DNA of 64,000 bases from Phaeotremella fagi (taxonomy: Eukaryota; Basidiomycota; Tremellomycetes; Tremellales; Phaeotremellaceae), in assembly GCA_001599715.1 (NCBI GenBank), contig BCHU01000002.1:1922001-1986000 (forward strand), written 5' to 3'. The translations under genes were made by a program, and so were the position numbers. Below, piece by piece: positions 40,352-45,403 of this stretch (within the stretch, counting starts at the first letter, position 1; each line of letters starts with the position of its first letter). Under the pieces are notes generated by a model, which saw nothing but the letters and a program-made list of their open reading frames with translations, was not told the DNA's origin and did not search any database.

Positions 40352-43300
40352 CTAAATCAAAACCTTATCCTTCTTCTCCTTCCCACCATCAGATTCCTCC
40401 TCATGAGAACCAACGAATCTCCCCACCCATCCCCGAAGATTTTTATGAACCATCATCAAACCCAACACGACGGGTAGATACCATAAACTAACCCAAAAAC
40501 ATCGTCTGGCCGTAATCTCATTGGTCGATTTCCAGAATTTCCACGCTGAATCCACGAAAAAGGCGTTAGGGATCGCACTGGTCAATGCGAATGACCAGTC
40601 CACCGATCCACTTAATGGAGCCATGAGACCGCAGACTGGGAGTAGGATGACTGCGTGTCTCAAAGAGACTAAGGCGTTTAATCGGGGTGAGAGGACTGAG
40701 AGCATTGGATAACCGCTTAAGGCGTAGAACGGTCTGATCATGTGGGATAACGCGTTGAAATGAGGGAATTGCCATGAGAAAAGTAGAACGAATAGTGTAT
40801 AAGCTGTTAAGGGGTTTGGAGTGGTTGAGGTGTTGTCGTCGGTGAATGGTAAATAGAAACGAAGGGGTTGATCTTGAGTCGGGAATAATGATCCGCCTGT
40901 GGCTGTCCATCCCATAAGTGGAGTGATTGCTCCGACAACTGCTCCAACCCAGGTGTTTGCTACTGTGAATCTTTTCATTGGGGTGTAGATCGCAGAATAG
41001 AGGATGAGATTACCGATTCCCAAAGCTGCTGTTGTGGGATTACATCCGAAATAAAGGAAAGTGCCTCCAATGATCGTACACACCATACCGAACATTGCAG
41101 CATGGAAGACACTGATTCGTCTAGATGCCAAAGGTCGAACTCTGGTTCGAGGTGTTTGAGCATCTAATGGAATTTCAAGAATCTGGTTGAACGTATTCGC
41201 AGCAGCTGAAGTTAGGAAAGTTCCTATCGTGAGATTGAATAACAAAGGCACAGATAGGGGTAATGGTGATAAAGCCAACCCAGTAGTAGCTGTAAGTGTC
41301 ATCAAGATGGATAAGTTCCTTTTGGACAATTGAGAATAGATGACCACAAGACGTCGAAGGTTCATAGGTGGGTGAGGTCGATATGCTGAAAATGGAGCAC
41401 TGGGTGCAGTCGGGACTGGGAGGTTCAAGTCGGGAAATACTGTCGGCTGAGCATTGGCAGCCTGTCGAACAGTTGTAATTTCACTCAGTCGAGATGTGAA
41501 GAATGTTTGAGATGAATGATCGATAGCTTGAGAATGACTTCGTCTTTGAGTATGTATAGATCGTTTTTGGCCATTAAACGGTGAAGGCGCTTGGATGGGT
41601 AGTCGACGAGATGACGAGGCCGACACCGTAGCAGTAACGGGTTGAGGAACGTGATGGTCTTCAGTTTCCGTAGCAATTGGTTCTCCAAGTTTTGCCATTT
41701 GACCCTCAACCATCTTCCTAAATCTTCCTTTTGGTCTGGAGATGAGTTCATCGTACGAACCATCCTCAGCGACTCTGCCGCCTTCTAGTAGAACGACTCT
41801 TTCAGCTTGAGCGATGGATGATAGTCGATGGGCAATGAGAATGACAGTAATGTCAGAATTGGAGAATAGATTGTTGAGAGCTTTGTTTACCTGTGTGATG
41901 TCAGTCAACATTTCACTTAGATCTCGAACTACTTACAGCAGCTTCGGATTCAGAATCAAGAGCACTAGTCGCCTCGTCCATCAACAGTACTGCTGGGTTC
42001 CCAACTAAAGCTCTAGCAATGGCGACTCTTTGACGTTGACCACCGGAAAGACTAGCTTTGGTAACTACATATCAGCTACCGGCATCCGAAACAAAACTTA
42101 CTAATAGTTTCATAACCCTCTGGCATGTTCTCAATGAAATCACAATGGGCGACTTCAGCAGCTTTGACAACCTCCTCTCGTGTAGCTTCTGGATGACCGT
42201 ATTTAATGTTCTCTTCGATCGTGCCACCGAACAGTATAGGGTCCTGTGGAACCACGCCGATTCTGGCTCTCCATGATTCCGGAATGAAATCCTTGATTGT
42301 TCGTCCGTCAAACGTCACATTACCTTCGGTTGGATCGTAGAATCGTAATAAGAGGAGTTGAATTGATGATTTACCACTTCCACTTCCACCGCTATAGTAG
42401 GTTTAGTGAAGCGAACTTCGACTGTTTGAAAGGACTCACACTAAAGCTAATCTTTCGCCTTTATCGATTCGTAAATTCAACCCGTTCAAAACTTTAACAT
42501 CTGGTCTTGAAGGATACGCAAAAGTAACATCGCGAAGTTCGATAACACCATCACGTTTTGGTACGGATTCTCCGATAGAAAGAGGTATAGGGGAGGGGAG
42601 GTTATGCAGACCGATGATTCTTTGACTCGCTCCTACACCTTTCATGAGACCAGTAAAGAATCCGGCGAGAGCTGGTGCAATCAGCATGATAATGCAGTAT
42701 TGGACTTACTGTTCAAACTCCATTCTATCCAATTCACATAGATGAACAAGGATGTCATGTCACCAACTGATATTTCTCCTCTTCGAACCAAAACACCTCC
42801 ATAGATTAACAACCCGATCATACCGATATCACCAGCGACTTCATTCCCACCTTGGAACACCCCGTTGGCGAAAGTCTCCTTCTTCTGTAGTTTGAAAACG
42901 TCATTGACCTTGGCAGCGAATAAAGCGCGTTCAGAAGTCTGTGTATTGGATGCCGAAACTGTTCGATGAGCCGATAACCTTTCCTCAGCAAGTTTACTCA
43001 TGTTTCCTAAAGCTTCTTGCGTTTTCAAAGAAAGTGTTCGAATATATCTACCGTAGTAGAACGACCCAATCGATATTGGTGGTATCACAAACAACATGAT
43101 TATGGTCAAACTTGGTGAGATGACATACATCATTCCAATACCGACAGCAGCACCAAGAACCGCCTTGAGACCTTCTCCAAGATTTTCTGAGAGAGATTGA
43201 CCAACTATTGATGTATCTTGTCCAAGCCTTGAAAGCGCATCACCGACACCCGAAGTTTCGATATGAGAAGGTGGGAGGGATAAGAATTTACCATAAGTTT

Positions 43301-44114
43301 TGTTTCTGATAGCAACAACAGTTCTTTGTCCAGCTAACCTCAAAGCAATACTTCGACCTGAATTAGCAGCAGCTCCAATAAGTAAGATGACAAACAAAGC
43401 TGCCGTAGCTTTTTCTACAGGTAAACCGAAAAGTAAAGTAGCTTCAGAACCAGGCGCGAAGAAATCAATGATTCGACCAATAACCCATGGAATAGCTAGA
43501 TTAACACCGGTGGAAATAGAGAGACAAGCTACTCCGAGTGTGATCAGTCGCCATTGAGGTTTAGCTAACGATACGAGTTTGAGAATAGACGATGCGTCAG
43601 GTTTCGGATCTGTTTTGGCGGGTACAGAAGCTTTTTCAACTGGTGTTGGAGTTGCTGGAGGTGATAGTGGAGTGGTGACAGGAGTTGTAGTGGTTGCAGT
43701 TTCTACGGGTTTCTGATTTGCTTGATTTGAGTTATGCCGTATAGGAATTGTCCGCGCGAATACCGAGTGAACAGAGTGATTGTTGATACCAAATGAACGA
43801 GTGTAAATACCCTTCGAATAAAGATCATAAAGTCTGGTACTCGAGAAAGATCTTAATCCGACAGAACCAACGAAATTAGAAGGTCGAACTTGAACCCCAA
43901 CAAATCGACTTTGCTGTAAGAGAGAGGTCAGACCGAGGGGCCGAGCTATAGCTCCTCGGACTGCCATTGCCATTGTTGGCTTATGATATTTGGGTGAAGA
44001 TTTGAGGTGAGATTGTCTACCGAATCTTGAAGAATTTTGAACCCAATTTCTAGAAATAATTAATTGAGAGATGGTTTCACGGAAAAGTCGAAAGGATATT
44101 GTTGGAAAAAACAT
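40352..44114 (-). CDS. Fusion: mitochondrial ABC transporter (MDL1/ABCB10-type) joined in frame to COX10
   Basis: One reading frame carries two enzymes. N-terminal: mitochondrial presequence (Arg/Ser-rich from 44114 or the ATG at 43973), six-helix ABC membrane domain, Walker [10 protein letters not shown] (about 42361-42395), [17 protein letters not shown], signature [15 protein letters not shown] (about 42005-42055), Walker [13 protein letters not shown] and H-loop LIAHRLSS, as in MDL1/ABCB10 half-transporters. Without any stop the frame then crosses a Ser/Arg/Pro-rich linker (about 41341-41671) into COX10, protoheme IX farnesyltransferase, which makes heme O for cytochrome oxidase: [39 protein letters not shown] (prenyl-diphosphate motif), [35 protein letters not shown], ending KEKKDKVLI. 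Four introns, all in the ABC half; about 1,190 residues. Both parts look intact. Confidence 0.9.
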
Positions 44115-44194: not shown

Positions 44195-45403
44195 ATGCAG
44201 TATAAACCTTCAGTAACTGCTGTTAAATCAGCTCAATCAGCTGCTAATTCAAGGCATGCTCTAATAAATCTAACTAGATTGGTTAATTCCCTTTCGGTCA
44301 GATTAGATATCAACGTGGAAGATGAGTCCGAGTCCACGTCAGAGGAATGGGTGGTGGTGAGGAAAGATTGGGAGGTAAGCTGGATTCCTTAGAGCGCTAC
44401 TTCAGGCATCAGCTGATTGGCTATTATAGACTGTCTTATATGCTCGAGCTTTACTGGAAGCTGTTCGTAATGTTAATGAACAGTATGTCTGCTCGGTCAC
44501 AAAAAGACTTTGCTGACTTGGCGTTCAGATCTTCGTCAGCTACTTCAACGCTGGATACTCTTTCTGAAACATTGAGCCAAGTAGAAATTAGATATAAAGA
44601 ATCCTTAGACGTTCGTCTAATATATCTTACATTGTTGAAATGTATCACTGACGAGATCCATCAGAAATCGAATCCACCAAAAATACTACCACCCCTCCCA
44701 GAAAGTCCCATATCGAGTCCATTAATCATACCCAAAACCCCACTCCTTAACATCCCAACATCAAATCTACCACCCCTATCACCAACAATACCAGCACCAC
44801 CTTCACAACGCCAAAGACATTCTTCAACTTTCACCTCCACCCCTTCATCCACTAGGGATTATTTGGCCATACGAAGAGAAGAGGATAATCAAGGTGATGA
44901 AGTTGGATTATTACCTTTGAAGATCGTTAAGAAAGTGGCAGGGAAGAATGGTGTTAGTGATAAAGATAGTTTACTTGGTTCGGCTAGGGGTGGTGGGGTT
45001 GGTTCTGCCCAATTACATGATGAACTAGGTGGTCAATTGGCGGAGGTATGTTGGATGCCTGTGGATCAGATTGTGCGAAAGCTGATTGTGTTAGATGTCT
45101 CACCGATTGAAATTGAATGCGTTGCATTTTGCTACATCATTAGAAGAGGAGAAGACAATTCTTGACTCTTCAACCGGAGTGTTAGAAAGTATGTAGTGGG
45201 CCTTACCACAGATGATTCAGTATGTCGAATTGCGTCGCTGACCACAGTATCCTGCAGAAAACCTCAGTTCTACTCGTACTTCCAAAGCTCAATTGGCTAC
45301 TGTGTCCAAGAAGGGTAGAGGTACAACTTGTCTCACTTTGGGTGTTGTCGTCTTGGTGATATTCTTATGGATGTGGATGTACATGTTGATACGATTTACG
45401 TGA
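44195..45403 (+). CDS. USE1: USE1-like ER SNARE
   Basis: Tail-anchored SNARE for Golgi-to-ER retrograde traffic. Five exons are joined using GTATGT/GTAAGC donors. The N-terminal half is helical (MQYKPSVTAVKSAQSAANSR; ALLEAVRNVNEQ; VEIRYKESLDVRLIYLTLLK), the middle is Pro/Ser-rich, and the SNARE-like helix is LHDELGGQLAE-MSHRLKLNALHFATSLEEEK-TILDSSTGVLE, matching the 'ML.LA..LK...L' pattern of Use1. The C-terminal anchor TCLTLGVVVLVIFLWMWMYM is followed by LIRFT and TGA at 45401-45403. About 330 residues. The start is only 80 bp from the divergent MDL1-COX10 start. Confidence 0.78.

Follow-up and report, generated by a model that had tools for sequence, protein, structure and literature searches.

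In the window, that is, the whole stretch of 64,000 nucleotides analysed, the minus strand from 44114 to 40352 carries one five-exon gene whose 1197-residue product comprises, in order, a leader, an MDL1/ABCB10-type half-transporter, a 113-residue linker and a complete COX10. Two mitochondrial proteins are encoded in one open frame behind a single N-terminal leader. In the preferred reading, to which we assign a probability of roughly 70% from sequence and by analogy, the chain would be imported by means of the transporter leader and cut by the mitochondrial processing peptidase (MPP) into a transporter and COX10. The original prediction that an MDL1-type transporter and COX10 form one polypeptide is well supported by the frame, by both domains and by conservation.

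A half-transporter and COX10 in one open frame

The last exon (41890-40352) spans the ABC H-loop region (LIAHRLSS) through COX10 and is stop-free; the stop-to-stop open frame on the minus strand runs from 41932 to 40352 and comprises 526 codons. The single frame predicted from the H-loop (about 41890) to 40352, with no stop and no splice needed, is borne out by frame and gene model alike. The four introns, all of the minus strand and all GT-AG, are very short (37-48 nt), and lie at 42672-42709, 42392-42439, 42065-42101 and 41891-41936. Exon 1 (42710-44114; gene model, Pfam and N-terminus comparison) encodes the mitochondrial leader and most of the MDL1/ABCB10-type transmembrane domain, and exon 2 (42440-42671; gene model and Pfam) encodes the end of the transmembrane part and the start of the nucleotide-binding domain (NBD). 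The gene model places the Walker A (GGSGSGKS) and Q-loop (VVPQDP) region in exon 3 (42102-42391), and the ABC signature (SLSGGQRQR) with Walker B in exon 4 (41937-42064). Exon 5 (40352-41890), identified by frame, gene model and Pfam, carries the H-loop and C-terminus of the transporter, the linker, the complete COX10 and the stop. The true start may perhaps be Met48 or Met50 (43973 or 43967) in place of Met1 at 44114, because many relatives begin like MAVREGLG and a similar stretch is found there in the window. On the plus strand, the neighbouring frame at 39331-39885 matches ADH_zinc_N (8.5e-16), a zinc-binding dehydrogenase domain, and a divergent open frame of 279 residues, which returns no Pfam match, adjoins the start of the fused gene at 44326-45162.

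Pfam analysis of the 1197-residue product reports ABC_membrane at residues 192-460 (2.8e-50), ABC_tran at residues 530-676 (4.6e-31) and UbiA at residues 884-1153 (3.4e-48). The transporter half contains an ABC transmembrane domain and one NBD carrying all five ABC motifs, at residues 547, 592, 647, 667 and 703, which we take to be, respectively, the Walker A, Q-loop, signature, Walker B and H-loop strings; it is therefore a half-transporter. A search of this half against solved structures returns ABCB10 (3zdq) at 6.4e-128 versus ABCB8 (5och) at 9.7e-86, and ABCB10 is the closest mitochondrial half-transporter of known structure among the best 60 of 585 matches, where ABCB7/Atm1 is absent; the full-length chains of ABCB4/ABCB1 outscore ABCB10 (best 513 bits). 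The leader-like N-terminus is in line with the predicted location of the fused transporter in the mitochondrial inner membrane. An R-x-phi-[HSN]-[ST] motif occurs in 17 of 24 transporter N-termini (shuffled mean 4.2), at least one of these instances, in C. wingfieldii at residue 121, lying beyond the leader.

The UbiA/COX10 catalytic domain (residues 884-1153; 40487-41296, minus strand) is recognized by Pfam and by a heme O synthase model, the COX10 part scoring 218 bits against a cut-off of 210.3 for TIGR01473 (NCBIfam heme O synthase equivalog). Two other heme O synthase models, NF003349 and NF003348, are not passed. With its full domain, the COX10 part is a predicted heme O synthase. No other COX10 was found in the source genome (22.6 Mb, 24 contigs), in which one match to the COX10 protein was returned and the remaining UbiA-family pieces are grouped on one contig, C5.

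The same genome returned, with the transporter as query, a series of pieces 38-68% identical to it (G000:C4:49301-51130), and a free-standing MDL1-type half-transporter gene lies on this other contig (L042, G000:C4:48500-52000). Because this gene exists besides the fused one, the genome carries two MDL1-type genes. The free-standing gene has a leader-like start (MPVRLGLTT...). Its protein, assembled along Mrakia P0161 (585 residues) by an approach biased towards that query, is 66% identical to P0161 over 578 residues; the fused transporter is 51% identical to P0161 over 572 residues, and the two transporters are 52% identical to each other. A 21-row tree gives the fused transporter clade a long stem (1.82, 100/100) and sets it apart from the free-standing gene. 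Judged by sequence, the genome seems to pair an ordinary MDL1-type gene with a derived paralogue, the fused transporter. The original label MDL1 thus stands as to the type of half-transporter; as an exact name it does not, given the second gene, and should read MDL1-type.

Spread, age and apparent splitting of the fused gene

The original prediction had asked whether related tremellomycetes share this arrangement, and they do. The linker plus COX10 region was searched against proteins of 658-2095 residues, the 8000 candidates sharing most words being scored, and both UbiA and ABC_tran are present in 52 of the 62 matches (P0001-P0052). Species names are attached to 24 of these 52 fused proteins: 13 belong to Kwoniella, three to Cryptococcus (wingfieldii, depauperatus and sp. 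DSM 104549), two each to Vanrija and Cutaneotrichosporon, and one each to Naematelia, Kockovaella, Cryptotrichosporon and Tremellales sp. Uapishka_1. Five fused proteins re-run against Pfam all have the same domain order. A sequencing error that removed a stop codon, the objection raised at the outset, is excluded in practice by the recurrence of the architecture in 52 of 62 matches. Since the 24 named species and unnamed environmental sequences share it, chance is ruled out, as is an assembly or gene-model artefact, the probability of which is negligible. Cryptotrichosporon belongs to the Trichosporonales and Cryptococcus to the Tremellales, and on the usual assignment of the remaining fused genera the fusion is kept across two orders. 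The other 10 of the 62 matches are COX10 within longer proteins, listed without an ABC domain. Long COX10 predictions lacking this domain include P0055 (Jaminaea rosea), P0053 (Mycena kentingensis) and P0058 (Polycauliona MAG), which may represent further fusions or gene models run together.

A second search covered shorter proteins, full-length fused proteins being outside its length range. Among its best 120 of 1258 matches, COX10 is unfused in Naganishia (Filobasidiales), in Phaffia (Cystofilobasidiales), and in several mushroom rows, presumably Agaricomycetes; the unfused COX10 rows inspected carry their own N-termini. In a COX10 tree of 46 rows, the fused rows form one clade (100/98) that excludes both Phaffia and the Naganishia group. 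This tree omits P0088 and P0092 from the 48 rows chosen, as well as P0018, P0019, P0034 and further environmental rows, and includes the flagged long branches of Jaminaea, Phaffia and Fomitiporia, Phaffia being joined with other unfused rows. The closest named row to the fused gene is Tremellales sp. Uapishka_1, in this tree as in that of the transporter, which places the organism among the tremellomycete yeasts. Three changes of the fused/unfused label are required by the COX10 tree, in our reading a single gain and a pair of apparent losses. Of the latter, Dioszegia P0078 probably reflects a truncated gene model, since the frame of the 90% identical P0077 runs through the linker. Independent fusion in several lineages was considered and rejected on this reading of the tree. 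As the fused rows form one clade that leaves the Naganishia group and Phaffia outside, the data fit best a single fusion predating the split of the sampled Tremellales and Trichosporonales. The transporter tree comprises 27 rows, P0187 being left out, and its label is not clearly more clustered than when shuffled (scores as low in 83 and 93 of 500 shuffles), as just 4 of its rows are unfused; of this tree, only the placement of P0159 is relied on. The Tremella mesenterica transporter P0160 is labelled partial and carries no weight either way.

The Cryptococcus gattii group has separate halves, COX10 P0070 (485 residues, 66 members, C. bacillisporus) and transporter P0159 (725 residues, 49 members, Cryptococcus), for each of which Pfam reports one half; from the cluster sizes, we infer that the separation reaches the whole pathogenic clade. 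P0070 is nested within the Cryptococcus-Kwoniella clade of the COX10 tree (100/97), and P0159 among the fused Cryptococcus of the transporter tree (100/97 and 96/86), being joined with C. wingfieldii at 100/99 in the 21-row tree. P0159 retains an acidic tail that resembles the first half of the linker and then ends, while P0070 retains the second half, with QKRSSHS. The N-terminus of P0070, MISRKGLGFAANIL, resembles those of the transporters: the 16 N-termini most like its first 15 residues all belong to fused or MDL1-type proteins of the clade, among 225 compared that are matches from the present searches and not random proteins. P0159 ranks first (score 43), the best N-terminus outside the clade being that of Mrakia P0161 (score 12), and BLAST of the first 15 residues gives an E value of 0.012. 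The leader of P0070 (residues 1-15) looks MDL1-type, an apparent footprint of gene fission. Because both P0070 and P0159 fall inside the fused clade and this leader matches the MDL1 type, the C. gattii group probably results from a later split of the fused gene. Such a split would have proceeded by duplication of the fused gene and complementary loss, COX10 being left with the leader of the transporter. A first exon shared through alternative splicing is unlikely, the two N-termini being identical at 9 of 15 residues and diverging after residue 15, in a comparison of cluster representatives possibly from different species. This apparent split provides a natural comparison for the fused state.

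The linker and the fate of the chain

The linker (residues 751-863; 41357-41695, minus strand) consists of the transporter tail, a basic stretch, and the COX10 N-terminal region. It contains a proposed MPP site inferred from its motif, QKRS/IHT (the slash marks the predicted cut; residues 793-799; 41549-41569, minus strand), from which the predicted mature COX10 would start at residue 797, followed by a second R-x-x-H-S copy, RRSHS (residues 801-805; 41531-41545, minus strand); second copies are also present in the linkers of some relatives. A script extracted 70 linkers, measuring 109-173 residues, from 236 sequences (235 proteins and that of the window). All 70 linkers contain R-x-x-H (shuffled mean 13.1, maximum 23, of 70), and 66 of the 70 contain [RK]-R-x-x-H-[ST] (shuffled mean 0.26, maximum 3, of 70), these linkers being related sequences and not independent draws. 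Outside the 70, the motif is seen by eye in P0027 (KRSVHT) and P0052 (KREMHT), which belong to the 52 fused matches. Its R and H are the only 100% columns among the alignment columns with less than 30% gaps. The acidic residues D and E amount to 20.7% upstream of the site, 1.8% around it and 5.4% after it, and the basic residues K and R to 9.8%, 15.4% and 8.0%, respectively. Position-wise counts were made on 69 linkers, P0077 being left out: position -3 is R in 54 and K in 13, including the window; position +1 is A in 27, N in 19, M in 9, L in 8, I in 5 and Y in 1; and position +3 is T in 52 and S in 15.

The sequence QKRS/IHT is close to the engineered minimal MPP site RRA/FHT. FHT or FST after the cut is described as most efficient for MPP, the double site RGGGRRAFHT being the one chosen, and with K at position -3 shortened peptides are cut inefficiently while an 11-residue peptide with K and FHT is cut efficiently (PMC10450427). 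An MPP-type site and a presequence-like make-up are therefore found between the two halves, with a residue at +1 and a K at -3 that are not ideal. Cleavage could be partial, because +1 is A or N, not F, in 46 of 69 linkers, and because of the K at -3. In a protein that stays uncut, the conserved R-x-x-H could serve some other function. The stretch after the site (RPFFSAH and similar) resembles the N-terminal region of the unfused environmental COX10 P0091 (FFSAHH), for which reason the second half of the linker is probably a retained COX10 N-terminus.

Alternatively, the fused frame might be incidental, and the last exon might contain an internal promoter or start codon from which COX10 is produced on its own. 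This is quite improbable, even though the Dioszegia model P0078 begins within the linker (MSRPFFSAH) and 11 of 69 linkers have a Met ahead of the site. In the other 58, the segment from linker residue 3 up to the site has no Met. As this segment is also acidic, COX10 is unlikely to have a start of its own with a leader; in most linkers no Met stands where a basic COX10 leader could begin. Moreover, so variable a frame would hardly stay open in 70 linkers if untranslated, and the P0078 start is undercut by P0077, as noted above. In a weak test, codon usage of the linker read in frame scores 0.066, above its other five frames and below one downstream-control frame (0.113).

The reading of import followed by cleavage is preferred because the linker motif resembles an MPP site and because the S. 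pombe Rsm22-Cox11 precursor offers a precedent. One mRNA would give one chain of roughly 1150-1200 residues, which the N-terminal leader of the transporter would carry whole into mitochondria. The former COX10 presequence region, now internal, would be cut in the matrix by MPP at [RK]-R-x/x-H-[TS], to release COX10, the heme O synthase, from the MDL1/ABCB10-type half-transporter. Most simply, the cell would gain by expressing and importing the two inner-membrane proteins together, at a fixed ratio. The fusion would have arisen once, from a derived MDL1-type copy, before the sampled Tremellales and Trichosporonales diverged, and would have been undone in the C. gattii group lineage.

If the chain stays uncut, it would be a covalent transporter-enzyme in which COX10 is held at the matrix side by the ABC domains of the transporter dimer, allowing a hand-off of heme or a related substrate. 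The topology fits, since the ABCB10 NBDs are in the matrix (PMC10090120) and the COX10 active site is predicted at the matrix face (PMC7140478). ABCB10 is listed among the ferrochelatase partners in PMC7140478, which states that how heme b gets to COX10 is unknown. Retention of the fusion across two orders also speaks for an uncut chain. Against it stand the conserved MPP-type site and presequence-like make-up of the linker, and the C. gattii group, which manages without the tie; we consider an uncut chain unlikely. The original prediction had offered either a physical tie between heme handling and farnesylation or mere co-expression. Co-expression comes close to the preferred reading, to which co-import and cleavage are added, whereas a lasting covalent tie is not favoured, in view of the conserved site and of the separate genes of the C. 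gattii group.

The partnership of ABCB10 with ferrochelatase and the stated gap in heme b delivery make the fused gene suggestive for heme. Any direct heme role is putative, since peptides are the reported cargo of yeast Mdl1 and biliverdin that of ABCB10 (PMC10090120). It is conceivable, as a rather speculative proposal, that a derived MDL1/ABCB10-type copy, retained next to the ordinary free-standing gene, is dedicated to COX10 and joins ferrochelatase in a heme metabolon; newly made heme b would be handed to COX10 there, with the linker cut or uncut. On this proposal, the fused transporter would be a missing part of heme b delivery to COX10. The gene fusion, which involves a distinct copy of the transporter, offers a testable hint on how heme b reaches this enzyme.

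Comparison with known systems

No description of an MDL1-type-COX10 fusion was found among the titles and abstract openings of the open-licence papers that literature searches returned. The sequences are already in databases, annotated for instance as protoheme IX farnesyltransferase or mdl1, and the fused arrangement appears undescribed. Many fused proteins of ~1180 residues are named only protoheme IX farnesyltransferase, a warning for annotation, as this name hides the transporter half. The list of mitochondrial tandem precursors is short, and the fused gene adds a widely conserved and apparently undescribed case, in which a single chain joins two polytopic inner-membrane proteins and an MPP-type site is kept in 70 of 70 linkers.

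Taken separately, the halves resemble known proteins. The transporter shares with ABCB10 and yeast Mdl1 a leader, an ABC transmembrane domain and an NBD with ABC motifs, and differs from them in having a whole second protein at its C-terminus and in belonging to a long-stemmed clade. The COX10 half resembles COX10 and the bacterial CyoE-CtaB in its full domain, which scores above the cut-off of the heme O synthase model; unlike them, it lacks its own N-terminal leader, the presequence region having become internal. Among composite precursors, the partners of Rsm22-Cox11 are not both known to be polytopic membrane proteins, whereas both are here; the partners also differ, and cleavage is here predicted from sequence. 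What they have in common is that a single precursor joins two mitochondrial proteins, of which one is a cytochrome oxidase assembly factor; the S. pombe precursor is cut after import (PMC12375894). Yeast Arg5,6 is cut internally by MPP, and Atp25, S. pombe Etp1 and rice RPS14 are further composite precursors (PMC8847149). All share with the fused gene an internal presequence-like stretch and an MPP site between two functional parts, which in our case are an ABC transporter and a prenyltransferase. Lastly, in the engineered Nif polyproteins cleaved by MPP in yeast mitochondria (PMC10450427), a similar motif releases several proteins; those are man-made, and the fused gene looks like their natural counterpart.
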